From: Chryseobacterium binzhouense
GTDB lineage: Bacteria; Bacteroidota; Bacteroidia; Flavobacteriales; Weeksellaceae
Direction: 5' to 3'
Assembly: GCF_007474545.1 (NCBI RefSeq)
Contig: NZ_VKOG01000001.1
Coordinates: forward strand, 372,001-436,000
Length of the DNA: 64,000 nt
The notes beneath the pieces were generated by a model. It worked only from the letters and a program-made list of their open reading frames with translations, made no database searches and was not told where the DNA came from. The translations under genes and the position numbers were made by a program. Positions 19,360-34,896 of the stretch are shown here, piece after piece (position 1 is the stretch's first letter; every line of letters starts with the position of its first letter).

Positions 19360-20196
19360 ATGTCCAAGAAAAAGTTGCTTATCAAGGAAATGTTTAATAA
19401 GGCTAAAGAAGAAACAGGCAAGAAAACTAAAAATGCTTTAGCATCTTACTTGTGGTCTTACTTTGATGAGAGATTTCCCAAATGTATTTCTGACAGGACG
19501 CTGTCAAGATATTATGACGCATTCATAGATGAGACCAGGGATGAAATTGAAGTGGAAGATTTTATGCTTGATAGATTCAGTGAGTATGTAGGTTTTAAAA
19601 ACTTCACCGATTTTTCAAGAACATTCATTAAGAAAGATGAGGCTGCTAATAAAACAATGGTAAAAATAAGTGTTGGTGAGGATGAAGAATCTCTAACTGA
19701 AAAACTTTCCAATATCATCATTAATATTACCAATGAGCAAAACTTTAAAATTCCTGATTTTATCAAAAAAAACGGATTGGGTATTTTAGAAATGACTTTT
19801 GTATTGCTTCTGGTTACAGGAGGCGTCATGTTTTCTAATAAAAAAACACCCGAACCTTTCAATTGGATGTCTGGTTGGGGTTCTCCCGCTATTGATAAGC
19901 CCTATATGTATTGGGAAAATGATAGATATATGGCAACAGACAGCAGTTATTTGGGACCGCAAATTAATGTTGTCCCAATGAATCCTAGTACGTTTACATA
20001 TCTTAAAAAAATTACAAGACCAGATACCCTTAATATTAATAATTTCAGAGGGAAAGTCTGGTATGATAAAAGTAATAATAGAGTGGATTTTTTTACGAGT
20101 TTTGGACGACATCCTGAGAATGGAAAAACTTTAAAAGAAGCCACTGATCGTATTATTGAAAACTATGCAGGATCAGATAATGAAAATCAGGACTGA
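19360..20196 (+). CDS. Membrane-anchored protein with an HTH-like N-terminal domain
   Basis: 278 residues, no firm family. The N-terminal part (1-95) has CISDRTLSRYYDAFIDETRD and FSEYVGFKNFTDFSRTF, a pattern seen in Bacteroidota proteins with a DNA-binding-like or HTH-like head that ends in a Y(L/V)GF..(W/F).DF motif. One membrane segment follows (about 144-162). The outer C-terminal part (165-278) contains WMSGWGSPAIDKPYMYWEND and looks like a small binding domain. It could pass a signal from outside to DNA. Its 3' end overlaps the convergent HlyD gene by ten bases. Confidence 0.6.
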   Translation: MSKKKLLIKEMFNKAKEETGKKTKNALASYLWSYFDERFPKCISDRTLSRYYDAFIDETRDEIEVEDFMLDRFSEYVGFKNFTDFSRTFIKKDEAANKTMVKISVGEDEESLTEKLSNIIINITNEQNFKIPDFIKKNGLGILEMTFVLLLVTGGVMFSNKKTPEPFNWMSGWGSPAIDKPYMYWENDRYMATDSSYLGPQINVVPMNPSTFTYLKKITRPDTLNINNFRGKVWYDKSNNRVDFFTSFGRHPENGKTLKEATDRIIENYAGSDNENQD

Positions 20197-21482
20197 TATC
20201 CTAATAATTTCCTGATCTGATAAAAAAACCGTTCTATTAATCTTAAATCCTGTGTAACAATTTCTGCATTTCCACGGAGTTCTTTGTCGAACTTAAGGAT
20301 TTTATTGTAAGAAGTTTGCAAACCTTTCGGAAGAACAACATCTACATAATAATTTCCTTTGTCATCGGGTGTAAGAGAGATATTCTGTACTTTTCCTTCG
20401 ATGATTCCGTATTCCTGAAAACGGTAATTATCCAGTTTGATCAGAACTTTTTCTCCCGCAATTATTTTTCCTGAATTAACAGCAGGAACAGACATTCTGC
20501 CTACCAATTGTTCTGTATGATCGGGTAGAATAGAGATGATAGGATCTCCTGCTTTTACAAACTGATTTTCACCAAAAAACTGCTGAAAGCTCGCCATTCC
20601 GTTAGTAGAAGAAACGATGAGATATGTCTGTTCCCATTGTTTTAGAGATTTTCTGAGATTTTCAAAAAGCTGTAAAGTCTGAGAAGAGTAGGTAATTTTA
20701 TCCTTCTCTGTGTTGATTGCCGTTCCGCTTTTTGTTTTATTAAGATTGGTTATGTTTTCCTGTAACTGTGACAAAGAAATATTGATGTTTTCGAGGTTTT
20801 GCTGAGCCTGGAGGAATTTTATTTTTTCATTTTCCAGCTCCATCGCTGCAATAACTCCCTGATTGAATAATTCCTGAGAACGCTGATAATTTTTTTTGGT
20901 AAGCTCGTATTTTGTAATCTCCAGATTTTTCTGCTGCATTAAATTAGCAATTCTTATTCTCGCTTCTGTCATGCTTTGATTGGCAGCAAGGTTTTCCGGA
21001 GCATACGGCTGTAATCTGGTGAATAAATTTTCGTCCTGAAAAGCTTTTGCAAAACTGTTGTAATCACCCTGCAGTTCGCCCAGTTTGAAATTGGAAACTT
21101 TACTCAACGGGAATGAAAGCAGCTCATCAGATTTTATAGAATCAACAATTGTCTTAAGTTCCAAAACATCCTGATAGTTTGCGGTAGACTGTAAAACCAT
21201 CATTACATCACCTTTTTTTACTTTCTGATGATCTTTAATAAAGATTTTTTCTATTTTTGAATTACTTCTCGCTTCAATTTTTTCCGGCGGATTCTGGGAG
21301 GTCACAATAATCGGAGCGGGAACAAATTCCGGATATTTGATGATGTAACTCATCACCATAATCATAATCAAAATAATAAAAATAACCGTGTTTCCCCATC
21401 TGATCATCCAGTGAGGAGGCTGTGTAAGAATATCCTGAACGCTTTCTGAGCGGAGTTCTATGTTATCTAAAATATCTTTCAT
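20187..21482 (-). CDS. HlyD-family membrane fusion protein of a peptide exporter
   Basis: About 431 residues from MKDILDNIELRSESVQDILT; an ATG four codons upstream is possible. One membrane segment (about 30-50) follows a cytoplasmic N-terminus. The periplasmic part begins with a lipoyl-like half (IEARSNSKIEKIFIKDHQKV), continues with a long coiled-coil hairpin (about 155-245), then the second lipoyl half and a beta-barrel region (QLVGRMSVPAVNSGKIIAGE). Such proteins join a C39-type ABC exporter to the outer membrane. Its partner is the ABC exporter gene two frames upstream in the same direction. No outer-membrane TolC gene is beside it. Confidence 0.92.
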   Translation of the reverse strand: MKDILDNIELRSESVQDILTQPPHWMIRWGNTVIFIILIMIMVMSYIIKYPEFVPAPIIVTSQNPPEKIEARSNSKIEKIFIKDHQKVKKGDVMMVLQSTANYQDVLELKTIVDSIKSDELLSFPLSKVSNFKLGELQGDYNSFAKAFQDENLFTRLQPYAPENLAANQSMTEARIRIANLMQQKNLEITKYELTKKNYQRSQELFNQGVIAAMELENEKIKFLQAQQNLENINISLSQLQENITNLNKTKSGTAINTEKDKITYSSQTLQLFENLRKSLKQWEQTYLIVSSTNGMASFQQFFGENQFVKAGDPIISILPDHTEQLVGRMSVPAVNSGKIIAGEKVLIKLDNYRFQEYGIIEGKVQNISLTPDDKGNYYVDVVLPKGLQTSYNKILKFDKELRGNAEIVTQDLRLIERFFYQIRKLLGYQS

Positions 21483-21483
21483 T

Positions 21484-21548
21484 TTAATTAGCAATTAGCA
21501 GTTAGTACGTAGCAATTAATAGTTAGCAATTAGTTGTTAGTTAGTTTA
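21484..21548. repeat. Degenerate TTAGCAATTAG-type short tandem repeats
   Basis: The stretch is built from variants of TTAGCAATTAG and AGTTAG, with no open frame. Together with TACTTACTAA and TAAATACTAC words at 21549-21572 and again at 21991-22007, it brackets the four-helix-bundle gene. Confidence 0.55.
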
Positions 21549-21582
21549 TACTTACTAATTTCTAAATACTACCAAAACCAAC

Positions 21583-21936
21583 CTATTTTGATTTTAATGT
21601 TTTTGTTATTGAGATTAATAGCTTCAGTAATTCTGTTGCATCTTTTGATATAGAATTGAATTCTTTTGTTGACAGAAAGTTGGTTTCATACAAAAGATCA
21701 AGCCAATATAAGGTTTCATTTGCTTCTTTTAATGCAATGTATAATTTGTTTAAAAAATCTTTATCACTTTGTGCGAATTTACTTTCTGCAATTAATGCTC
21801 CTATAGCAGTTCCGCTTCTCAGAAGCTGTTTAGAGAGAATAAATTCTCTCATACTATCCGTCAAAAATTTGTAACAATGAATAATACGTATTGCAAATTT
21901 CTTTGATTTATCATGGAGTACATTATCTTTTTTCAT
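21583..21936 (-). CDS. Four-helix bundle protein (23S rRNA intervening-sequence protein family)
   Basis: 117 residues, all helical. KFAIRIIHCYKFLTDSMREF, then LLRSGTAIGALIAESKFAQS, then FLNKLYIALKEANETLYWLD are the typical blocks of the S23/IVS four-helix-bundle family. These proteins are widespread in Bacteroidota; some are encoded inside rRNA intervening sequences and the fold is related to the Avd protein of diversity-generating retroelements. A nucleic-acid-binding role is assumed. Here it interrupts the exporter genes and is flanked by short AT-rich repeats, so it looks like an inserted passenger rather than part of the peptide pathway. Confidence 0.85.
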   Translation of the reverse strand: MKKDNVLHDKSKKFAIRIIHCYKFLTDSMREFILSKQLLRSGTAIGALIAESKFAQSDKDFLNKLYIALKEANETLYWLDLLYETNFLSTKEFNSISKDATELLKLLISITKTLKSK

Positions 21937-22007
21937 TTGATCAATTAGTAGAAATAATTATCAATCGGGTTGAACTAAAATACTAATTACTACTTACTAA
22001 ATACTAC

Positions 22008-24203
22008 TTAATTACCAAGTTCTAACTGATTTTTAACAAGTCTGTAATATTCACCTTTTAAAGTAACCAATTCTGCATGATTACCTTCTTCTACCACTTT
22101 ACCTTTATCTAAAACAATAATTTTATCGGCATGTTTCACGGTTGATAATCTGTGTGCAATCACAATTGCCGTTTTGCCTTTGAAGAACTGTTCAAGATTT
22201 TCCATGATTACTTTTTCGTTGTTGGCATCCAAAGCACTTGTAGCTTCATCAAAGAAAATGTATTCCGGAGATTTATACACTGCTCTTGCAATGAACAGCC
22301 TTTGTTTTTGTCCGCCACTGATCCCAATGCCTTCGTTTCCGATTTTCGTATTGTAGCTTAATGGCAATTCTTCAATGAAATCTTTAATATTGGCAATTTC
22401 TACTGCTTTTCTCAGTTTATTTTTATCTACATAATCTTCTCCTACCGCAATATTATTGGCAATGGTATCATTGAATACATAACCTTCCTGCATCACAACA
22501 CCGCATTGATCTCTCCAGAATCTTGGAGAAATATTCTTCATCTGAGTATTACCGATTTTTATTTCCCCTTCATTGGGTTCATAAAATTTCATTAAAAGTT
22601 TTAGCAATGTAGTTTTTCCGCTTCCGCTGGCTCCGACAATAGCGGTAGTTTTCTGAAATGGAATATTTAAGCTTAAATTTTCAAAAACGAACTGGTCAGA
22701 ACCAATATATCTGAAAGACATATTGTTGATTTCAATATCTTTTTCAGGAATCTCATTGGCATATTGTTCGTTTTTATTTTCTTCATCTTCTTTATCATGA
22801 ATTTCGCCTAATCTTTCTAATGAAATCTTGGCATCCTGCGTTTGTTTAATAAAATCAATTAATTGTAAAAGAGGACTGTTGAGCTGTCCAATAATATATT
22901 GAACCGAAAGCATCATCCCTAAAGTAAGATTTCCTTCCAAAACCAATTTAGCGGAAAGAAAACTCACCAAAATATCTTTCATCTGATTGATGAAATTTCC
23001 GCCAACCGATTGCCATTGCTCTAACGAAAGCGATTTTATTCTCAATTTAAACAATTTGACTTGCAGAAATTCCCAATCCCAACGTTTTTGTTTTTCGGCA
23101 TTGTGCATTTTGATTTCCTGCATACCATTAATGAGTTCAATCACTTTGCTTTGTTCCTGAGAAACCTGTGAGAATCTTTTATAGTCAAGTTCTTTTCTTT
23201 TATTAAGAAAAAAAGTAATCCATCCGACATACAGAACAGCTCCAACCAAATAGACAACAAACAATCTGTAATCATAAAACAGCAAAACGATACTAAAAAT
23301 AATCAGGTTGACTAACGAAAATAAAGTGTTTAGTGATGAGTTGGTGAGAAGTTGCTCAATCCTGTGATGATCGTTGATTCTCTGCATGATATCTCCGGTC
23401 ATCCTCGTGTCAAAGAAACTGATTGGAAGTTTCATCAGTTTGATAAAGAAATCAGAGATAATGGAAATATTGATTCTTGTGGAAAGATGAAGCAATATCC
23501 AGCTTCGGATGACTTCAATTCCCATTCTGCCGAGAAAAAGCATCACCTGTGCAAGGAGCACAAGATAAATAAAATTAATGTCCTGATTCTGAATCCCGAT
23601 ATCCACTATGCTTTGGGTAAGAAACGGCATTATAAGGGAAAGCAAACTTCCTGCAAGCAAACCTACCGCTAACTGAAAAATAAGCGATTTATATTTCAGT
23701 AGATATTTTGAAAGAAAAGAAAAACTTGCTTTGCTTTCTTCATCATCAAATTCCGTTTGAAAAAACGCAGGTGTGGTTTCCAGAATAAGAGCAATACCTT
23801 CTTCCGTATTTTCATTAGCGTTTTCACCGATCCAGAATTTGATAAATTCTTCTCTTGCGTAGGTTATCAATCCATAACTTGGATCAGAGATATAAACATT
23901 ATTATTCTTATCAATTTTATAAACGACAACAAAATGCTGCTTATTCCAGTGTACAATACACGGAAAAGGAACTTCAGAGGCAAGTGTATTAAAATCAATC
24001 TGAACACCCAATGAACGGAAACCTAAGTCTTCAGCTGCATCGCTCAACCCTAATAAACTGCTTCCTTCACGAGTCGTCTCCGAAAGATTACGAATTTGCT
24101 GCAAAGAAATGCTTTTGCCGTAATGTTTACTGATGATTCTGAGACATGTGGGACCGCAGTCTTTGGCATCGGGTTGAAGGTAAAAGGGAAATTTTTTTTT
24201 CAA
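22008..24203 (-). CDS. C39-peptidase-containing ABC exporter for double-glycine peptides
   Basis: 731 residues in three parts. The C39 peptidase (1-125) has the catalytic Cys16 in KDCGPTCLRI, His90 in HWNKQHFVVVY and Asp107 in ISDPSYG. The ABC membrane domain (about 165-450) follows. The ATPase (about 490-731) has the Walker A VGASGSGKTTLLKL, the signature ISGGQKQR, the Walker B YIFFDEATSALD and the switch His in VIAHRLSTV. It removes a leader after Gly-Gly and exports the rest across the inner membrane. Two double-glycine peptide genes in this island are likely cargo. Confidence 0.96.
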   Translation of the reverse strand: MKKKFPFYLQPDAKDCGPTCLRIISKHYGKSISLQQIRNLSETTREGSSLLGLSDAAEDLGFRSLGVQIDFNTLASEVPFPCIVHWNKQHFVVVYKIDKNNNVYISDPSYGLITYAREEFIKFWIGENANENTEEGIALILETTPAFFQTEFDDEESKASFSFLSKYLLKYKSLIFQLAVGLLAGSLLSLIMPFLTQSIVDIGIQNQDINFIYLVLLAQVMLFLGRMGIEVIRSWILLHLSTRINISIISDFFIKLMKLPISFFDTRMTGDIMQRINDHHRIEQLLTNSSLNTLFSLVNLIIFSIVLLFYDYRLFVVYLVGAVLYVGWITFFLNKRKELDYKRFSQVSQEQSKVIELINGMQEIKMHNAEKQKRWDWEFLQVKLFKLRIKSLSLEQWQSVGGNFINQMKDILVSFLSAKLVLEGNLTLGMMLSVQYIIGQLNSPLLQLIDFIKQTQDAKISLERLGEIHDKEDEENKNEQYANEIPEKDIEINNMSFRYIGSDQFVFENLSLNIPFQKTTAIVGASGSGKTTLLKLLMKFYEPNEGEIKIGNTQMKNISPRFWRDQCGVVMQEGYVFNDTIANNIAVGEDYVDKNKLRKAVEIANIKDFIEELPLSYNTKIGNEGIGISGGQKQRLFIARAVYKSPEYIFFDEATSALDANNEKVIMENLEQFFKGKTAIVIAHRLSTVKHADKIIVLDKGKVVEEGNHAELVTLKGEYYRLVKNQLELGN

Positions 24204-24208
24204 CGGTT

Positions 24209-25720
24209 TTATATTTTCTTCATTATTTCTTCATCCTCCAAAAGATCATCTATAAAATAGAAAATATCATCTCTTTCATATTTATCTGGAAACTGATACC
24301 CATTAATAATAAAAATTGGAGTGAAATTAAGTTGAGCTTCTATGTTTTCTACAGTATTCTGAATAATGTCAGTTAAATCTTCACTCACCTTCGATTTCGT
24401 TTTTTTACTGATTTCTTCTTCATCTCTATTTTCAAACCAAGAGTCAATAGCTTTTAGAAACTCTTGTTGAGATTTGTTTTTATAAATATTTAGGAAACCC
24501 GAGATTAACTGCGTGTATTTTTCTTCAACATTTCCTCCTAAATAATTAAACCTTAATTGTGCAGAAATTTTATCAGGATATTTTGATAGTAAATCTTCTA
24601 ATATTTTATGGGCGTCTTTGCAAAAACCACAATAAGGATTAGAAATAACGGATATATGGAGTTTTGCATTTTTATTTCCTAAGAAAAAGATATTTTCATC
24701 TGAAAACTCAATTTTATCTTTACTTAAAAGCTCGCGTTTAAACAATTCATAATTTCTTTTAAATCTAAGATTTTTTGCATTCAAAACTTTTAGAGTTTCT
24801 TTTTCTTTTATAATTGTGTTTATATATGCAACAGTAAAAAATAAAGTAACAAATAAAACAATTCCGATAAAAATAAAATTGATGGAGAAATTAAAATTTA
24901 AGTAAATCAGACTTATGGTTAAATTAGACAATAAAATGAAAATAATTATTAGGCATACTCTACACAGTGTTTTTTCTAAAAAAAACTGAACATACAATGA
25001 GTATATAATAATAAATACTGAAGTTATTGCCGCAATTTTTAAAATAATCTCTGCCTGAGGAAAAAGAGTTCCTACGATAGTAATTCCTAAAAAGTAAATT
25101 AGGCTAAAGTCAGATAATTTTAGTCCTAATATATCTATTTTATCTGAAGAAAATACCCTTTTACAGGAACTTTGTAAATTGTTATTTGAAGTAACTCCAC
25201 AAATGCTATTTACTATTAAAGAGTCATGACCAAATTTTTGACTAAATAATTCTAAAGAAATAAACAAGCCCAATAATGACAGCATATTGAACAAACTTTT
25301 ATACCAATCAAGCTGAAATATAGAATACATTATTAGAAAGAAAATAACGAAGTAAATAGAATACTTAAAATTAAAATCTGATTTTGTGGTATTCTGCTTT
25401 ATATTTTTTTCTAATATAAAAACAAGATTATTGGTTTTTTCGTGCAACTCTTCTTTAGTAAGACTTTCTATTTTATCAGAATATATTATAAACTCATTAT
25501 TTTTTTTCTGAACAAACGAAAAGGAATTATCAAGAAATGTAATAAATTCGTCAGGAAGTTCATCCCAATATTCTTTGTCCAACTCATAAGCATCATTTTT
25601 TATTCCCATAAACCTTAAAGTATCACTAAAAGCTAAAGCTGATGGATAACTAGGATGTGATTGAAATTGAAAGAGATACTCTTCTTTTGAAATTTTTATT
25701 TTATTACAAAAAGCTATCAT
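24209..25720 (-). CDS. VKOR-thioredoxin disulfide-forming protein with a degenerate C39-like N-terminus
   Basis: 503 residues in three parts. Residues 1-110 resemble a C39 domain without its catalytic residues (HPSYPSALAFSDTLRFMGI, then FSFVQKKNNEFIIYS). Residues about 118-310 are a vitamin K epoxide reductase-like membrane domain with the loop pair Cys174/Cys186 and the CRVC pair Cys253/Cys256. Residues about 345-503 are a DsbA/DsbG-like thioredoxin domain with CGFC (364-367) and the cis-Pro in FTPIFIING. VKOR homologues pass electrons from thiols to quinones, making disulfides. It starts three bases after the TlpA-like gene and stops five before the exporter, so disulfide formation in the exported peptide is the likely job. 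Confidence 0.88.
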   Translation of the reverse strand: MIAFCNKIKISKEEYLFQFQSHPSYPSALAFSDTLRFMGIKNDAYELDKEYWDELPDEFITFLDNSFSFVQKKNNEFIIYSDKIESLTKEELHEKTNNLVFILEKNIKQNTTKSDFNFKYSIYFVIFFLIMYSIFQLDWYKSLFNMLSLLGLFISLELFSQKFGHDSLIVNSICGVTSNNNLQSSCKRVFSSDKIDILGLKLSDFSLIYFLGITIVGTLFPQAEIILKIAAITSVFIIIYSLYVQFFLEKTLCRVCLIIIFILLSNLTISLIYLNFNFSINFIFIGIVLFVTLFFTVAYINTIIKEKETLKVLNAKNLRFKRNYELFKRELLSKDKIEFSDENIFFLGNKNAKLHISVISNPYCGFCKDAHKILEDLLSKYPDKISAQLRFNYLGGNVEEKYTQLISGFLNIYKNKSQQEFLKAIDSWFENRDEEEISKKTKSKVSEDLTDIIQNTVENIEAQLNFTPIFIINGYQFPDKYERDDIFYFIDDLLEDEEIMKKI

Positions 25721-25723
25721 AAA

Positions 25724-26812
25724 TTACTTTTTTAGCAACTCTATTAGTTCTTTTTCGTTTGATAAACCGGTAGTTTTTGAAAGTATTTTGTTGTTGCTGT
25801 CTATTAGGACAGTATATGGTATTGCTTGGTCAAGTTTATAATTTATTTGTAGGGCTTCATAGTCTGTGATATTTTTTTTGTTTACAATAAGCTGTTTCCA
25901 TGTCATATTTTCAAGAGCTAAAGCCTCTTTCCACGACTTTTTATCTTCGTCTAAAGAAATTGAAATGAACTCTACCTTATCTTTATATTGAGAATGGATT
26001 TTCTTTAAAATAGGAATTTCCTGTCTACATGGACCACACCAACTTGCCCAGAAAACAATCAGATGCTTTTTGTATTTTTTATTTATTATTTCAGTTTTTT
26101 TCCCTGTGTTATCTTCAAGTAATGGAAGGACGACAGTTTTTTCATTAAATCTTTTATCGTTATATGCTTTCAGGTTTTTATATGTTTCGCTTTTACGAAT
26201 ATCACCTTTAAAAGAGTCTAAAAGAGAGACTAACTGTTTTGCTGAGAAACTATTTTTAGTTTCGTTAATTTTATATAATAAGTGATATGAATAAGGATAA
26301 ATTTTTATTTTTTCTTTTATAATCTCAACTTTTCCATTACTAATTTGATCAAATATGTCATTATCAATATTGTAAAAAGCAAGTGTTTGCTTTCCAGCAA
26401 CAATTTTTTGTGTCGTTACAAATTTAAAATTATCAGGTAGTTTTAAATCTTTAAGTTCAAAATCAATTATTTTTCCAGTAATTTTAATAATTGAATCGGA
26501 TAAAAAATTAGGAGAGTTCCAGCCAGCCCCTAAATATTTAGATTCAGTAGGAAAATTAAATGCTCTTGTGACTTTTTTTTTATCAACATGATCTAGACCT
26601 AAATAAACAGGTTCACTATCATTCCATATATAATTAAAATTAAACTTGCCATTTTTTACAATTGTGCTATCAATTCGGTTATTTACATTGTCCTTATATA
26701 AGTACATTTTTCCATCAGGCAAATTATTAATATCTCCTGAAATTAAGGTATGCTTGGTTTCTGTACACGATAAAGTACAAAGAATCAAAAAATAAGAATA
26801 ATATTTTTTCAT
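25724..26812 (-). CDS. TlpA-like thioredoxin lipoprotein with a DUF4369-like N-terminus
   Basis: 362 residues. MKKYYSYFLILCTLSCTETK is a lipoprotein signal (Cys16). Residues about 22-110 resemble the DUF4369 beta-domain that precedes thioredoxins in Bacteroidota (LISGDINNLPDGKMYLYKDN). The C-terminal thioredoxin/AhpC-like domain has the active site FWASWCGPCRQE (Cys259, Cys262) and the cis-Pro in AIPYTVLID. It would reduce or isomerise disulfides in the periplasm. Its ATG lies nine bases after a hairpin that separates it from the precursor peptide gene, in the same operon. Confidence 0.9.
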   Translation of the reverse strand: MKKYYSYFLILCTLSCTETKHTLISGDINNLPDGKMYLYKDNVNNRIDSTIVKNGKFNFNYIWNDSEPVYLGLDHVDKKKVTRAFNFPTESKYLGAGWNSPNFLSDSIIKITGKIIDFELKDLKLPDNFKFVTTQKIVAGKQTLAFYNIDNDIFDQISNGKVEIIKEKIKIYPYSYHLLYKINETKNSFSAKQLVSLLDSFKGDIRKSETYKNLKAYNDKRFNEKTVVLPLLEDNTGKKTEIINKKYKKHLIVFWASWCGPCRQEIPILKKIHSQYKDKVEFISISLDEDKKSWKEALALENMTWKQLIVNKKNITDYEALQINYKLDQAIPYTVLIDSNNKILSKTTGLSNEKELIELLKK

Positions 26813-26820
26813 AAAGTTTT

Positions 26821-26842
26821 AAGGAGGCTAAAAAACCTCCTT
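26821..26842 (-). promoter_or_regulatory. Intercistronic hairpin between the precursor peptide and the thioredoxin gene
   Basis: AAGGAGG / CCTCCTT with an 8-base T-rich loop; on the minus strand no T-run follows it. It sits nine bases upstream of the downstream ATG, so it could lower expression of the enzymes relative to the peptide, or protect the peptide mRNA 3' end. Confidence 0.5.
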
Positions 26843-26858
26843 ATTTTGATTTAGTACA

Positions 26859-27095
26859 TTAACAACGAGATCTTCCACCATTTGATGTTACATTTACTTG
26901 CCCTAAACCTGTTTCACAATAACTTGTAAAAGTAGGAATGGTAAGTTCGCCAACATGTATTAATTCCATCTTTTTTTCACAAGTCCCAGTTCTGGTTACC
27001 CATTGTCCATTTGATCCTTGAATTGATAATGTACAAGCTTGTCCACCCAGTATATTACCTAAATCATTTCTTGAAAGTTTTTTAAGATTTTTCAT
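26859..27095 (-). CDS. Double-glycine precursor peptide with four cysteines (bacteriocin-like)
   Basis: 78 residues. The leader MKNLKKLSRNDLGNILGG ends in Gly-Gly at 17-18, the recognition and cut site of C39 exporters. The 60-residue core has Cys21, Cys39, Cys60 and Cys78 with gaps of 18, 21 and 18 residues, and the last Cys is the C-terminal residue. The core contains Trp32 and several Gly/Ser/Thr. The even spacing suggests two disulfides. It is first in the operon with a thioredoxin, a VKOR-thioredoxin protein and the C39 exporter, all suited to its oxidation and export. The activity (toxin, signal) is unknown. Confidence 0.85.
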   Translation of the reverse strand: MKNLKKLSRNDLGNILGGQACTLSIQGSNGQWVTRTGTCEKKMELIHVGELTIPTFTSYCETGLGQVNVTSNGGRSRC

Positions 27096-29288: not shown

Positions 29289-29486
29289 ATGAGAAAGGTA
29301 AAAAACAATCAAAAAAAGCTTTCATTAAATAAGCTAAAAATGGTTAAAATTCAAAATGGATTAAACACTATTATGGGAGGTAGTGCTGTTGCAGGAGGTA
29401 TTGGAGGAGATAATCAGACTGTTTTGGACAATACCGACAACCCGGGAGGCGTCAACGGACCTCTTCAACCTAGAACAAATAGGTAA
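29289..29486 (+). CDS. Cysteine-free double-glycine precursor peptide of the LanB cluster
   Basis: 65 residues. The leader (1-31) has KKLSLNKLKMVKIQN and ends in IMGG, which resembles leaders of Bacteroidota class I lanthipeptide-like precursors. The 34-residue core is Gly/Asn/Pro/Asp-rich (GGIGGDNQTVLDNTDNPGG) and contains Ser32, Thr44, Thr49 and Thr63 but no cysteine, so lanthionine rings cannot form within it. It is followed by a hairpin, then an exported hydrolase and a split lantibiotic dehydratase. Dehydrated or otherwise tailored Ser/Thr residues are the expected modification. The mature product is unknown. Confidence 0.8.
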   Translation: MRKVKNNQKKLSLNKLKMVKIQNGLNTIMGGSAVAGGIGGDNQTVLDNTDNPGGVNGPLQPRTNR

Positions 29487-29493
29487 AACAAGA

Positions 29494-29520
29494 TGAGGCT
29501 GTTAAAAGTTTACAGCCTCA
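29494..29520 (+). terminator. Hairpin after the Cys-free precursor (attenuator or weak terminator)
   Basis: Perfect 9-bp stem TGAGGCTGT / ACAGCCTCA with a 9-base loop, followed by ATTTTAAAT. It lies between the peptide and its maturation genes, and would allow more peptide than enzyme to be made. Confidence 0.6.
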
Positions 29521-29585
29521 ATTTTAAATCTAAGTTATGAGCATTTTATAATACTCTTTCGCTAGTAAATTTCGCTACAGATATA

Positions 29586-31820
29586 ATGAAAAACATTCTA
29601 ATTATTTGTTTTCTTACTTTTTTCAATTTTATTTTTTGTCAAAAAATAAATGTAAAAGGAGTTACGACCTCGAATCCAGAAAATCTTGTAAAATATTTAG
29701 CAACTCAACTTAAAGATAAATATTCAGAAAAAGAGCCATCAACTTTTTATGAGAATGCTTTCAGGATTAATATGATTAATGAAGATTATGATTTATCACT
29801 TTCTCAATTGGAATCAATTCGAGATATTTATCGGTCTGACTATCCCATTGAAGCGTCTGCAATGGGAACGCAGTTTGAAATTTACATGAATACTATAAAA
29901 AGAGCAAAAAACACTGATGAGTTAAAAAAAATATATGAGGAGGAGTTTGTAAAAAAATATAAAAAACTACCCGTGAAGTCACAAATTATCCTCCCTGAAT
30001 ATTTTGATTTTGATCTCGCAGATATTGAAAAATACATTAGTGAAACCATTCAAACTAAAATAAAAAATGACAGTATTGAAATAACTGATGCAGTACAGCT
30101 TTGCAGAGAATACAACTCGCTTAATGTTGCCAGAAAAACCTTCCATTTTGCAAAGCCATTATTAAAACAACTGGATCAAGAAAATTACACAGTATATGAT
30201 AGTGTGAAAATTGTTACTAAAGATAATGTTGATCTTACACTAAGTATCGTAGTAAATAATAAAACGTCCAAACCCTTAAATACTATTTTAATAAATACAA
30301 TTTATTCAAGTGCAGCAAATATTAATGAAGCTAAAGAATACGCTTCAGAAGGTTATGCTTGTGTTATCTTAAATACACGTGGTAAATATTTGAGTAGTAA
30401 CAAAATAGAGCCATTTGAGAATGAGACAGAAGATATCAACAAAGTCATAGACTGGATTGTGAAGCAGCCATGGAGTAACGGAAAAATAGGGATGATGGGC
30501 GGAAGCTATTTAGGGTTTAGTCAATGGGCAGCAACAAAAAACCTACATCCTGCATTAAAAACAATAATACCGCAAGCTCCTGTAGGAATTGGAACAATGG
30601 ATTTTCCTATGAATAATAATATTTTTTCATCTTATGCGCTAAGATGGCTAAACTATGTCACTAACAACAAAATGATTAGCTACAAGGATTTTGAAGAGAA
30701 AAAATGGAATCCAATTTATAAAAAATGGTATGAAACAGGTAAATCTTTCAAAAAATTAGATTCATTAAGTGGAAAAACGGATGTTATTTTTCAAAGATGG
30801 CTTACACATCCCGCATACGATAATTACTGGAAAAGTATGGTGCCTTATAAAAAGGAATTTTCTAAAATAAACATCCCTGTTCTGACAATGACAGGATATT
30901 ACGATTCAGATCAGTTAGGAGCATTATATTATCTAAAGCAGCATTATAAATATAATAAAAAAGCTGAGCATTATTTAATCATTGGTCCATACGATCATTC
31001 GGGTGCTCAGGGGAATATCAAGAAAAAACTAAGAGGTTACACAATAGATAAAGTCGCTGATATAGATTTGAATAAAATTTGTATTGATTGGTTCGATTAT
31101 ATTTTAAAAGATAAAGAAAAGCCGACATTTATAAAAGATAGAATCAATTATCAGGTGATGGGTTCAAATCAGTGGAAAAGTACAAATTCCATTCATAACT
31201 TTGAGGAGAATAAAGTGAAGTTCTATTTAGAAAGTGAAAAAAAGAACTTATCTGCCTCAAAAAATAAGACCACAAATTTTTCCTCACTTAAAATAGATTT
31301 TAGAGATAGATCTGATGCAGACGAATTACTTGCATTAAAGTATGATGTAATTGAAAAAACAATTTATGAAAAAAATAATTTAATTTTTTCTACAGATGCT
31401 TTCGATAAAACCTTTGAATTTTCAGGTAATTTTTCAGGAAAACTTAAATTTTCAATTAATAAAAAAGATGTAGACATCTATGTCAATTTATATGAACTTT
31501 TGCCAGATGGTAAATACTTTTTATTGTCAAGCTATTTGGGGAGAGCAAGTTATTCACAAAACCACGAGAAAAGAAATTTACTTGTTCCAAATAAAAAAGA
31601 ATCCCTGCTTATCTCTAACAATGAATTTGTAAGTAAGAAAATCGAAAAAGGAAATAAACTTGTTTTAATAGTTGGTGTTAATAAAAATCCTTTGTGGCAA
31701 GTTAATTATGGAACAGGAAAAGATGTAAGCGAAGAAACAATAGATGATGCTAAAGAGCCTCTTGAAATAAAGTTTTATAACGACAGTTATATTGAAATTC
31801 CTGTTTCAGAAAACAAATAA
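29586..31820 (+). CDS. Exported CocE/NonD (S15-like) alpha/beta hydrolase in the LanB cluster
   Basis: 744 residues. Signal peptide MKNILIICFLTFFNFIFCQK. A helical extension of about 180 residues with no recognised fold precedes the hydrolase domain. The S15/CocE-type domain has the nucleophile Ser307 in GMMGGSYLGFSQWA, the acid in MTGYYDSDQLGALYYL and the His in IIGPYDHSGAQGN, then a C-terminal jelly-roll part. S15 enzymes cut dipeptides ending in Pro from N-termini; CocE-like members cleave esters or amides. Lying between the peptide and LanB, it may act on the peptide or on a target molecule outside the inner membrane. Its stop codon is adjacent to the LanB start. Confidence 0.85.
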   Translation: MKNILIICFLTFFNFIFCQKINVKGVTTSNPENLVKYLATQLKDKYSEKEPSTFYENAFRINMINEDYDLSLSQLESIRDIYRSDYPIEASAMGTQFEIYMNTIKRAKNTDELKKIYEEEFVKKYKKLPVKSQIILPEYFDFDLADIEKYISETIQTKIKNDSIEITDAVQLCREYNSLNVARKTFHFAKPLLKQLDQENYTVYDSVKIVTKDNVDLTLSIVVNNKTSKPLNTILINTIYSSAANINEAKEYASEGYACVILNTRGKYLSSNKIEPFENETEDINKVIDWIVKQPWSNGKIGMMGGSYLGFSQWAATKNLHPALKTIIPQAPVGIGTMDFPMNNNIFSSYALRWLNYVTNNKMISYKDFEEKKWNPIYKKWYETGKSFKKLDSLSGKTDVIFQRWLTHPAYDNYWKSMVPYKKEFSKINIPVLTMTGYYDSDQLGALYYLKQHYKYNKKAEHYLIIGPYDHSGAQGNIKKKLRGYTIDKVADIDLNKICIDWFDYILKDKEKPTFIKDRINYQVMGSNQWKSTNSIHNFEENKVKFYLESEKKNLSASKNKTTNFSSLKIDFRDRSDADELLALKYDVIEKTIYEKNNLIFSTDAFDKTFEFSGNFSGKLKFSINKKDVDIYVNLYELLPDGKYFLLSSYLGRASYSQNHEKRNLLVPNKKESLLISNNEFVSKKIEKGNKLVLIVGVNKNPLWQVNYGTGKDVSEETIDDAKEPLEIKFYNDSYIEIPVSENK

Positions 31821-34016
31821 ATGCCCCAGTTCCCATATCAGTTTTTTCAGGAGTTTGCAGTGCGTACTCCACATTATTCGCAGAAAGATTTTCATAAAAA
31901 AATCTCAAAAGAGAAATTATCAGAGTCAGATTTTCGTGAAATCTGTATTAATCCTATTTTTCAGGAAGCCATTTATCTTGCTTCACCGGAATTATATAAG
32001 AAAATGTCTCAATGGCTGCTTTCGGAAAAAGATTTTGCTTTCAAAAATGTGCAAAAGCTTCATCATACCATTCTGAAATATTATATCAGAATGAGTACAA
32101 GAGCAACTCCGTTTGGTTTATTTTCAGGAATTGGTTTGGGCTCTTTTGACAAGTCCGATCTGAAAACTTCAGTTTCAAGAAAATTAAGAGATACTAAACT
32201 GGATATGCATTTCCTTGTATCTTTAGGCAGAAAACTAGGGAATACGAAAGAAATCAGAAGACAATTGATATATTTTCCCAATAATAGTATCTATAAGGTT
32301 GGAAAAAGAATAAGGTACATAGAGTACGAATATGTAAACAGAAAAAGAGATTATATTATTTCCTCTGCACCGTTTTCGGAAGAGCTTTTTCATTTATTAG
32401 CTTTTTCAAAGAAAGGAAAAACAATACAACAGATTGCACAATCATTAGTTGCAGAAGAAATTTCTTATACAGAAGCCGAAGAATTTGTTGAAGAATTAAT
32501 TGAAAATCAGGTCTTAGTAAGCGAATTGGAACCTGTGGTATCAGGTGAAAATTATTTCGATCATATCATTTCAATTTTAGATAAGGTTGAAACTTCAAGG
32601 GAAACAAAAATTTTAAAAGAGATTAAAGAAAAACTCTTACAACTGGATCAGGCAATAGGAAACCCTATTTCAGAATATCAGAAAATTGAGAGTTTAATTC
32701 AGTTTCTAAATACTGAATATGAGCAAAAATATCTCTTTCAGACCGATCTGTATTTTCAAAATAAATTTTATGTTTGTCCCGACACGAAAAAGAAAATTAA
32801 AGAGGGGATTATATTTTTAAATAAAATTAATTCTTATAATAAAAATACTTACATTGAAGAGTTTAAAAAAGCGTTTGCTGAACGTTATGAATCTGAGGAA
32901 ATATCTTTATCTCTTGTTTTGGATACTGAAATAGGAATTGGATACAGACAAAATACTCAAACTAGAGGAGTGCATTCTTACCTTGAAGAGCTAAAAATTC
33001 CAAGGTCTCGAAATAAAGACGAACTTGAATTTACTCTGACCCCTTTCCAAGAAGTTCTTAATCAAAAAATACAAAAAGCATCTCTAGAAAACCAACTCAT
33101 TATTGAATTTTCCGACGAAGATGTAAAAGATTTTGAAGAAAAATGGGAAGATTTACCCAAAACTTTTTCCGTAATGGCGGAGCTGATTTCCGAAAATAAC
33201 AAAGAAAAATTATCTCTCGGAGGCATTGGAGGAAGCAGTGCTGCAAATCTGCTTGGCAGATTCTGCTCCGAAAAAAGTAAAGTACAGGATTTAACTAAAA
33301 AGATTACAGATAAGGAAGAACAATTGCAAACTGACAATAATGTAATCTTAGCAGAAATAATTCATCTTCCTGATTCCAGAATTGGAAATATCATCAGAAG
33401 ACCTACTTTAAGAAAATACGAAATTACTTATCTGGCGCAGTCTGTTGTATCAGAAGAAAGACGGGTTTTTGTGAATGATCTTTATATTTCATTACAAAAT
33501 GATCACCTTATTTTAAGATCGAAAAAACTTAACAAGAAAGTTATCCCTTTTCTAACCAACGCACACAATTATCAAAATAGTTCTTCGCTTCCCGTATATA
33601 ATTTTTTATGCGATTTAAGTTCACAGAACAAACGGCGAAGTCTACATTTTAACTGGGGAGCATTAAGCCGGCTTTATCGGTTTTTACCGAGAGTTGAATA
33701 TAAAAATATTATTTTATCTAAAGCTAAATGGAGTATTACAGAGCAGGAAATACAATCTTTACAAATATTTGATAATAAAGAAGAGAAGAAAATCGTATCT
33801 GAAATACAAAACTGGAGAATTAAAAGAAATATTCCACAGTGGATTGAGTGGGTGCAGTCTGATAATATTTTGCCGATCAATCTGGGAAATTCAGATATGA
33901 TCAAAATCTTTCTGGAGATTATCCTGAAACATAAATCTGTCACAGTAGAAGAATATTTGTATCACGGCAGAGAAGATCTCAAAAAAGAGTTTGTTTTTCC
34001 AATGTTTAAAATATAA
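31821..34016 (+). CDS. Lantibiotic dehydratase LanB, glutamylation part (split form)
   Basis: 731 residues against about 1000 for full-length LanB; the missing part is encoded by the next gene. Conserved blocks include the N-terminal FAVRTPHYS, the motif RMSTRATPFGLFSGIGLGSF (90-109) and, near the middle, NVILAEIIHLPDSRIGNIIR followed by RRPTLRKYEITY. The family uses glutamyl-tRNA to glutamylate Ser/Thr of a peptide, a step before elimination to dehydro-residues. The start follows directly on the hydrolase stop. No LanC-type cyclase is encoded nearby. Confidence 0.93.
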   Translation: MPQFPYQFFQEFAVRTPHYSQKDFHKKISKEKLSESDFREICINPIFQEAIYLASPELYKKMSQWLLSEKDFAFKNVQKLHHTILKYYIRMSTRATPFGLFSGIGLGSFDKSDLKTSVSRKLRDTKLDMHFLVSLGRKLGNTKEIRRQLIYFPNNSIYKVGKRIRYIEYEYVNRKRDYIISSAPFSEELFHLLAFSKKGKTIQQIAQSLVAEEISYTEAEEFVEELIENQVLVSELEPVVSGENYFDHIISILDKVETSRETKILKEIKEKLLQLDQAIGNPISEYQKIESLIQFLNTEYEQKYLFQTDLYFQNKFYVCPDTKKKIKEGIIFLNKINSYNKNTYIEEFKKAFAERYESEEISLSLVLDTEIGIGYRQNTQTRGVHSYLEELKIPRSRNKDELEFTLTPFQEVLNQKIQKASLENQLIIEFSDEDVKDFEEKWEDLPKTFSVMAELISENNKEKLSLGGIGGSSAANLLGRFCSEKSKVQDLTKKITDKEEQLQTDNNVILAEIIHLPDSRIGNIIRRPTLRKYEITYLAQSVVSEERRVFVNDLYISLQNDHLILRSKKLNKKVIPFLTNAHNYQNSSSLPVYNFLCDLSSQNKRRSLHFNWGALSRLYRFLPRVEYKNIILSKAKWSITEQEIQSLQIFDNKEEKKIVSEIQNWRIKRNIPQWIEWVQSDNILPINLGNSDMIKIFLEIILKHKSVTVEEYLYHGREDLKKEFVFPMFKI

Positions 34017-34017
34017 T

Positions 34018-34896
34018 ATGTCAGCAAAAAGAAAATTTTTTCCGGGAAGTGAGTGGCTGTATTTTAAAGTTTATACAGGAATAAAGACCGCAGATCTGGT
34101 CTTAGAAGAATTAATGCCTTTAATTGACAGCCTTGAAGAAAGAAATCAAATCTCAAAATGGTTTTTTATACGGTATAATGATCCGAAACCCCATTTAAGA
34201 ATTCGCTTTAATTTAGCTGAAAAAGAGTTTTTTCAGTCGGTTGTGCAGGAGATAAATAACGGTTTGGAAAGTTTTTTGGAAAGTGGCGAAATATCAGACA
34301 TATCCGTCAATACATATACCAGAGAACTGGAAAGATATGGTTATAATACCATAGAAAACGCAGAAAGTTTTTTCTTTATCAACAGCAAGATTACTTTAGA
34401 ATGGCTGGAGTATGATGATGAAGAAAAGTTATTGGTCAGCATTTTTTATATCGAATGTTTGTTAAATCTGCTTAAACTTTCTATAACCGAAAAATCAGAA
34501 TGGATAAAGCGTTTTAATGATGCGTTCAAAGCAGAATTTAATGCTGACAAAAATCTTAATTCACAGCTTGATAAAAAATACAGGACATTTAAGCTGAAAT
34601 ATATTGAGTTTCTGCATTCTCCTGAATTTTCGTCAGAAAGAAATCAGATTGTATCAAATCTTTTTAATATAGAAAGTGATATTCAGGTTATTTTAAGTAA
34701 AAATAAAACGAATAGCCTTGATGTCAATCTACCATCATTTTTTCAAAGCATTTTTCATATGAATATCAACCGCCTTTTTGTTTCAGACCAAAGGCTTTTT
34801 GAAATGGTTGTTTACGATTTTTTAAACAGGCATTGTAAAAGCCTTCTATATCTTAACTCTAAAACAACCTCAGCTGCTGCTCCTTTGTCCCCGTAA
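34018..34896 (+). CDS. SpaB_C / thiopeptide-type elimination protein (second half of split LanB)
   Basis: About 292 residues from MSAKRKFFPGSEWLYFKVYT, one base after the LanB stop; the earlier in-frame ATG overlaps LanB. Family blocks: GSEWLYFKVYTG, KWFFIRYNDPKPHLRIRF, NTYTRELERYG and FHMNINRLFVSDQRLFEMVV. In full-length LanB this domain removes the glutamate to give dehydroalanine or dehydrobutyrine. Stand-alone relatives can also carry out other chemistry, such as cycloaddition in thiopeptides. The last ten residues (TTSAAAPLSP) overlap the antisense end of the convergent radical SAM gene. Confidence 0.9.
   Translation: MSAKRKFFPGSEWLYFKVYTGIKTADLVLEELMPLIDSLEERNQISKWFFIRYNDPKPHLRIRFNLAEKEFFQSVVQEINNGLESFLESGEISDISVNTYTRELERYGYNTIENAESFFFINSKITLEWLEYDDEEKLLVSIFYIECLLNLLKLSITEKSEWIKRFNDAFKAEFNADKNLNSQLDKKYRTFKLKYIEFLHSPEFSSERNQIVSNLFNIESDIQVILSKNKTNSLDVNLPSFFQSIFHMNINRLFVSDQRLFEMVVYDFLNRHCKSLLYLNSKTTSAAAPLSP

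Follow-up and report, generated by a model that had tools for sequence, protein, structure and literature searches.

What does an apparently complete pair of class I lanthipeptide dehydratase proteins do in a genome with no match to the LanC cyclase? The question is raised by a locus in a 64,000-nt stretch of Chryseobacterium binzhouense DNA (hereafter the window), whose enclosing genome measures 3.61 Mb and is 99.99% complete. On the plus strand the locus encodes, in this order, a TPR-AraC regulator, a precursor peptide whose core lacks Cys, an S15/CocE-family hydrolase, and a split LanB consisting of the glutamylation protein LanB-N and the glutamate-elimination protein LanB-C. The reading we favour, and consider moderately likely, is a LanC-free class I pathway, in which a linear dehydro-peptide would be made and then acted on by an exported serine peptidase, whatever the purpose of that step. 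Comparison with related genomes points to a large undescribed family to which the locus belongs, so that the earlier observation is more general than the window alone shows.

A single LanB pair and no LanC in the genome

The initial annotation of this locus, made from the window only, had noted the absence of a visible LanC gene, and this is borne out genome-wide: LanC (PF05147) has no match anywhere in the genome, which contains one match each to PF04738 and PF14028 and thus a single LanB pair. The annotation had also named a distant LanC, together with a second, Cys-bearing precursor, as the finding that would speak against its interpretation. A search of the whole genome recovered neither, and a profile of the window precursor family returned no second precursor at E values up to 1.

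Distribution across the genus Chryseobacterium

We searched 174 genomes of the genus and fetched 128 regions, which were annotated together with the window using home-made hidden Markov models. The fetched set covers nearly all split LanBs among the matches listed, leaving aside a short contig of one genome (G138), fused LanBs and weaker unlisted matches. An S15 match was the ground for choosing 39 of the first 40 regions, and nine of these 40 lack LanB-N. Matches to PF04738 occur in at least 132 of the 174 genomes and to PF05147 in at least 84.

A quick tree was built from 124 LanB-N proteins, and in it the 99 from LanC-less loci formed one clade with full support in the Shimodaira–Hasegawa-like approximate likelihood ratio test (SH-aLRT 100). 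Its rows carry the labels S9 (66), S15 (22), both (8) or neither (3), and the loci come from at least 89 of the 174 genomes; 37 of these 89 have no PF05147 match among the matches listed. Within these 99 loci, LanB-C is present in 97, a full-length TPR-AraC gene in 94, and an S9 or S15 peptidase gene upstream of LanB-N in 96 (S9 in 72, S15 in 24). LanC was found in the fetched stretches of only two clade loci (L101, L102), there with a separate fused LanB. Outside the clade stand 20 LanC rows and five LanC-less rows (L182, L187, L193 and the second LanBs of L174 and L177). The split LanBs of L182, L187 and L193, with no LanC in their stretches, form a clade of their own outside the main one.

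The gene order of the window recurs across these relatives and the precursors align, the comparison that the initial annotation had suggested making, and the arrangement proves widespread. The unit it had outlined, comprising precursor, S15 hydrolase and LanB pair, stands, with the exported-type hydrolase a recurrent member; the TPR-AraC regulator, which it had not named, has to be added.

Because the LanC-less clade is nested among LanC-linked LanBs, LanC was probably lost. The same nesting, along with shortened LanB genes in a few loci (e.g. L099, L130, L151, L176), is what would be expected if these were decayed, nonfunctional lanthipeptide clusters left behind by the loss of LanC. Yet at least 89 of the 174 genomes retain the LanC-less arrangement, and most copies combine genes of full length with residues that are conserved and specific core motifs; we consider decay a very remote prospect.

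Completeness of the LanB enzymes

The split LanB of the initial annotation, a glutamylation protein and a separate SpaB_C-type protein, was upheld by the profile matches to PF04738 and PF14028 and by aligned NisB residues. LanB-N aligns with NisB (4wd9) and with entry 9g04, labelled a thiopeptide-type bacteriocin biosynthesis protein, and LanB-C with the NisB elimination domain. Tyr87, Arg90, Arg94 and Thr96 of LanB-N correspond to NisB Y80, R83, R87 and T89, and Arg15 is, by motif, presumably the equivalent of NisB R14. In LanB-C, Arg61, Arg63, Glu103, Arg106 and His247 align with NisB R784, R786, E823, R826 and H961. According to the available part of the NisB study, Y80F and H961A abolish dehydration, changes at R83 and R87 lower it, and the effects of T89A and of R784A are mild (PMC4341554). 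Across the clade, the LanB-N motif R...R.TP.G is kept in 91 of 99 proteins, and the LanB-C motifs RY.D...H.R.R, E.ER[YF]G and H...NR in 94, 97 and 95 of 97. Both dehydratase halves, for glutamylation and for elimination, are therefore apparently present and intact, with NisB-type residues kept.

These features also bear on whether the LanB pair performs other tRNA-dependent chemistry, such as leaving a stable glutamyl ester, adding an amino acid to the C-terminus as in pearlins, or forming a pyridine as in pyritides. There is precedent for it: LanC-less LanB-type enzymes with Cys-free precursors earlier led to pearlins and pyritides, in the accessible text of that work (PMC11002830). Pearlin enzymes, however, are short LanBs with no domain for elimination, whereas the window has a separate PF14028 protein with NisB-type residues. 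Pyritides resemble thiopeptides in containing a pyridine, and no pyridine synthase was found in the window genome, whose sole PF14028 protein scores 19.8 bits against the pyridine-synthase model NF045556, far from its cut-off of 325 bits. Such chemistry is, in our view, improbable here.

Precursor peptides and their cores

The Cys-free leader-GG precursor was likewise confirmed. Its 34-residue core has no Cys, one Ser (Ser32) and three Thr (Thr44, Thr49, Thr63), and its leader, LSLNK-LKMVK-I...GG, fits the Bacteroidetes pattern LxLxKx5L plus GG except that Ile replaces the last Leu. The whole peptide is 44–61% identical to the precursors of five S15-type relatives and 31–40% identical to those of six others. 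The motif T[VIL][VILM][DEN]xT occurs in 17 of 24 S15-adjacent cores, the window included (shuffled mean 0.17, maximum 3, with the odds overstated because the shuffle tests used here ignore kinship among related cores), and in none of 65 S9-adjacent cores. As relatives align and the core motif recurs in S15-adjacent cores, the window precursor is not a chance open reading frame. We infer that Thr44 and Thr49, which bound the motif, are the likeliest dehydration sites.

The initial annotation had instead drawn attention to the Pro-bearing tail NGPLQPR. Pro is present in only 11 of the 24 S15-adjacent cores versus 61 of the 65 S9-adjacent ones, and what is conserved in the S15 type is the T-x4-T motif (the same 17 of 24). 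X-Pro cleavage of this tail was considered as the task of the S15 hydrolase and found unsupported, Pro being unconserved in S15-type cores.

LanC-less and LanC-linked precursors differ in Cys content. A precursor was recovered in 90 of the 99 clade loci, giving 93 peptides, with no Cys in the core of 53 and one Cys in 40; cores from LanC loci carry 2–7 Cys in all 23 counted peptides (11 of 18 LanC loci). These counts exclude two 3-Cys peptides (in L101 and L102) encoded next to the separate fused LanB that comes with LanC, any peptide whose leader is of another kind (a 3-Cys one in L114 included), and, from the LanC loci L170 and L184, two one-Cys peptides that neighbour S9 genes. No counted core is devoid of both Ser and Thr, and all 51 Cys-free cores examined have at least two such residues. 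Among one-Cys S9 cores, 23 of 32 share the spacing Cys-x6-Ser (shuffled mean 1.59, maximum 7, the spacing having been picked post hoc), e.g. in L095, L112, L150, L163 and L191; such fixed spacing could permit a single thioether ring to form without LanC. A different kind of peptide was seen in L174 (8160-8363) and L177 (11672-11875), Ser-rich, with a GG leader, a core ending in WWCL and a C39 exporter nearby. These lie near split LanBs outside the main clade (L174_3893, L177_13939), with no LanC in either stretch.

Could the Cys-free peptide be a decoy, with the true LanB substrate elsewhere in the genome? The profile search would overlook a substrate whose leader is unrelated, but it finds only the window precursor, which holds the same position in relatives and whose core motif recurs. 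We regard a decoy as scarcely credible.

Related loci outside Chryseobacterium

A scan of named genomes yielded 143 relatives, of which the best 80 were kept; their genera include Chryseobacterium, Epilithonimonas, Flavobacterium, Tenacibaculum, Polaribacter, Cellulophaga and Aquimarina, among others. The 26 non-Chryseobacterium loci in this best-80 set comprise 10 with LanC, 15 with TPR-AraC, none with both, and one (L271) with neither. One of the 15 TPR-AraC loci (Epilithonimonas, L263) has an S9 gene. All 14 others encode nearby a 553–569-aa protein with a lipoprotein- or signal-like N-terminus, and each of the seven of these that were scanned is an S8 subtilase. In most Flavobacterium loci the gene for this protein lies between TPR-AraC and LanB-N, like S15 in the window; in L289 it is upstream of a second TPR gene, and L275, L291 and L300 have the order LanB-N, LanB-C, TPR-AraC, precursor, S8.

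A second quick tree covered 64 LanB-N proteins, including 22 picked out of the 99. Its rows that lack LanC and bear TPR-AraC fell within a clade of 39 (SH-aLRT 99), which also includes two Aquimarina rows without TPR-AraC, L271 and L273, the latter with a LanC gene on the opposite strand a few kb away. One or two losses of LanC are therefore probable.

A probably exported peptidase of exchangeable family

The window hydrolase matches PF02129 (3.6e-41) and TIGR00976 (4.3e-55), and its N-terminus is signal-peptide-like, as visual inspection and a crude hydrophobicity test both indicate; by the same test, exported-type N-termini occur in 42 of 43 S15 and 77 of 81 S9 proteins of Chryseobacterium. 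Its best-scoring solved relatives are cocaine esterases, followed by alpha-amino acid ester hydrolases. Ser307, Asp440, Asp442 and His471 are invariant in 14 aligned cluster S15 proteins, the window's included, and we take Ser307, Asp440 (or Asp442) and His471 to be the putative triad. Chance adjacency of S15 and LanB was rejected, as the order TPR-AraC, precursor, S15, LanB-N, LanB-C recurs; at 20 other S15 loci, picked for having no LanB listed nearby, no TPR-AraC was found. Because peptidases of unrelated families serve in this position, hydrolysis rather than one particular fold appears to matter.

LanP, the classical lanthipeptide protease, is a subtilase of the NisP type. We infer that three roles remain for the peptidase (LanP-like maturation, immunity and signal tailoring) and rank maturation first, because S8 peptidases, as LanP, and S9 peptidases, as LanPB in the available part of one survey (PMC7268733), have been linked with lanthipeptide maturation. 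The present clusters differ in that S8, S9 and S15 peptidases alternate in a LanC-less setting.

Immunity is the most substantial competitor, though we judge it unlikely overall. The linear dehydrated peptide would then be a toxin, and the exported peptidase, its level raised via the TPR sensor whenever peptide is present, would destroy it in the producer's periplasm. Two loci (L106:4900-8995 and L111:4977-9083) retain TPR-AraC and S15 as an intact pair although no precursor or LanB adjoins them, as expected for resistance without production. It also fits that peptidase type tracks core sequence and that unrelated peptidase families serve. The pair was seen, however, in only two of the nine fetched S15 regions without LanB-N (L103–L111); L103 retains a precursor, and several of the others are contig ends or lack TPR-AraC. 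Moreover, the prolyl oligopeptidase encoded with lanthipeptide genes was proposed, in the portion of the source at hand, as the protease LanPB (PMC7268733).

The TPR-AraC regulator and co-variation within the locus

From the N-terminus, the window regulator comprises a signal-peptide-like segment, a TPR region (TPR_12 at 19.9 bits, below the cut-off of 30.1), a transmembrane helix and an AraC helix-turn-helix (HTH) domain. A hydrophobic N-terminus is present in 100 of 101 annotated TPR-AraC relatives and a central transmembrane helix in all 101, the probable architecture being a sensor on the periplasmic side linked to a DNA-binding domain on the cytoplasmic side. Profile matches include TONSOKU (8.1e-9), RapJ (2.2e-6), RapF (6.8e-6) and LGN (1.1e-5); since other TPR proteins match better than, or about as well as, Rap, the resemblance to Rap is generic. 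The RRNPP receptors (Rap/Phr) share the TPR region, but here that part is predicted to be extracytoplasmic and connected through a membrane helix to the AraC HTH.

Sensor, core and peptidase co-vary more with one another than LanB does, and peptidase type follows the core. In Mantel tests on 86 loci, uncorrected for relatedness, r was 0.74 for LanB-N/LanB-C, 0.37 for LanB-N/TPR sensor, 0.38 for core/LanB-N and 0.52 for core/TPR sensor, the last still 0.44 after removing LanB-N. Partial Mantel tests gave 0.63 for core/peptidase and 0.00 for core/LanB-N given the peptidase in 22 S15 loci, and 0.37 and 0.27, respectively, in 63 S9 loci. One genome (G051) holds three loci whose LanB-N proteins are 91–93% identical and whose TPR sensors are only 28–32% identical, with one S15 and two S9 peptidases.

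This pattern invites a bolder interpretation, which we offer tentatively and think rather unlikely: a peptide-signal family of Bacteroidota in which a ring-free peptide is dehydrated by LanB, exported, tailored by the peptidase and read by the TPR sensor-AraC protein, with sensor, peptide and peptidase forming an exchangeable, pherotype-like cassette on a steadier dehydratase.

Proposed pathway and its weak points

In the LanC-free pathway that we favour, the LSLxK leader, a family observed here, would guide the 65-aa precursor to the split LanB. LanB-N would transfer glutamate from Glu-tRNA onto Thr or Ser of the core, as its residues suggest, and LanB-C would eliminate it to give dehydrobutyrine or dehydroalanine, most likely at Thr44 and Thr49. 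With no Cys in the core and no LanC, the product would stay linear, as no thioether ring is possible within a Cys-free core. A C39 exporter is expected to cut after GG and export the peptide, whereupon the S15 hydrolase, placed here by its gene association, would act on it; its likeliest task is LanP-like maturation, which in relatives would fall to an S9 prolyl oligopeptidase or to an S8 subtilase. The TPR-AraC protein may sense the product or a related cue and control the genes.

Several observations weigh against this account or its extension to signalling. No precursor was found in nine of the 99 clade loci, three lack an upstream peptidase and five a full-length TPR-AraC; six LanB-N proteins have Ile at the NisB T89 position, and the motif is missing in L099 and L176. 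In L170 (9140-16001) and L184 (353-9975), a one-Cys precursor and an S9 gene sit beside a LanC cluster that contains the sole PF04738 of its genome among the matches listed, an arrangement implying that LanC is sometimes within reach in the wider family. The isolated TPR-AraC and S15 pairs of L106 and L111 would be odd for a pure maturation enzyme and favour immunity or listening, and cleavage of the GG leader by C39 alone could suffice. As for the cassette, the Mantel tests carry the lack of correction noted above, and across seven well-supported independent pairs in the LanB tree core motif and peptidase agree in 5–6 and disagree in none (median p 0.0625), with core Pro and peptidase agreeing in 4–5 and disagreeing in 0–1 (median p 0.125), neither being significant. 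Neighbouring genes co-travel anyway, which weakens the cassette interpretation.

Organisation of the locus and its neighbourhood

The features of the window are collected in Table 1. The S15, LanB-N and LanB-C genes look like one operon because they abut, meeting at the 31820/31821 junction and with one base (34017) before LanB-C, for which ATG 34018 is the likely start (a TTG at 33991 would give a 301-aa reading frame). A promoter scan returned five sites versus 3.1 expected. The terminator scanner reported none, its loop limit being 8 bases and the loop of the GAGGCTGT/ACAGCCTC repeat 9; this inverted repeat is a possible partial terminator, which would favour expression of the precursor.

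Table 1. Coordinates of the locus and of the candidate export genes in the window
Feature	Position	Strand	Basis
TPR-AraC regulator, 584 aa	27403..29157	+	PF12833 2.1e-13
Precursor peptide, 65 aa, Cys-free	29289..29486	+	open reading frame, family alignment, sole genome match (9.8e-24)
Precursor leader, 31 aa, LSLNK...GG	29289-29381	+	sequence reading
Precursor core, 34 aa	29382-29483	+	sequence reading
Core motif TVLDNT, Thr44 to Thr49	29418..29435	+	family motif
Inverted repeat GAGGCTGT/ACAGCCTC	29495..29519	+	direct reading; between precursor and S15 gene
S15/CocE-family serine hydrolase, 744 aa, signal-peptide-like N-terminus	29586..31820	+	PF02129, PF08530, TIGR00976
LanB-N, glutamylation protein, 731 aa	31821..34016	+	PF04738 2e-135
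LanB-C, glutamate-elimination protein, 292 aa	34018..34896	+	PF14028 8.4e-62, TIGR03891 7.1e-62
C39 peptidase-ABC exporter, candidate for peptide export and GG-leader removal	22008..24203	-	PF03412, PF00664, PF00005
HlyD-type membrane fusion protein, adjoins exporter	20187..21482	-	PF13437

The genome has two C39 matches, one in the window exporter and one at G000:C1:739525-739923; because of this second match, assignment of the window gene as the exporter stays putative. That exporter probably also serves the 4-Cys peptide genes next to it. The minus-strand unit at 20187-27095 encodes a 4-Cys GG peptide (NF047798 leader, 26859-27095), a VKOR-thioredoxin protein, a TlpA-like thioredoxin, the C39 exporter and HlyD. 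It resembles a disulfide-bonded bacteriocin-like peptide system and also stands beside several related loci.

Relation to known systems and implications

The closest described relatives are the class I lanthipeptides of Bacteroidota, such as pinensin and ChmA of Chryseobacterium OV715, which have in common with the window the split LanB, the leader type and C39, but which have LanC and Cys, whereas the window genome has no LanC match and the core no Cys. The accessible text of one survey describes Bacteroidetes LanA peptides that have an LxLxKx5L...GG leader, go with a split LanB and are processed by C39 (PMC7268733), and that of another study reports that a refactored Chryseobacterium LanABC cluster gave a dehydrated peptide with Chryseobacterium GluRS and tRNA-Glu (PMC9993889). 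The survey likely misses LanC-less loci, since, as we understand the part available, precursors were sought near LanC-domain proteins and Cys-free ones omitted (PMC7268733).

LanB-type dehydration without LanC rings has parallels elsewhere, and goadsporin is one. Goadsporin, thiopeptides and dehydrazoles also carry azole chemistry; no azole-forming YcaO enzyme was found among nine scanned window proteins, the extent of that search within the genome. For dehydrazoles, such ring-free dehydration is described in the available portion of the source (PMC10676384). In the accessible parts of two surveys, LanB is reported to be absent from Bacteroidales (PMC10352776), and it occurs nowhere in the main text on Flavobacteriaceae (PMC10734526). 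A search of the open-licence literature yielded no paper on a lanthipeptide with peptidase S15, and none of the papers listed has a title or abstract opening that describes a LanC-free LanB of Flavobacteria together with S8, S9 or S15.

The safe filing for this family is LanB-dependent ribosomal peptides with a full LanB pair but no LanC, the signal family being the bold one. If the proposed pathway is right, a widespread, full LanB pair would be used without ring closure, and the reactive dehydro-residues would themselves be the point. Genome mining seeded with LanC, or with precursors that contain Cys, would be expected to overlook such loci. With a linked sensor and alternating peptidases, self-signalling in Bacteroidota by modified ribosomal peptides would become directly testable.

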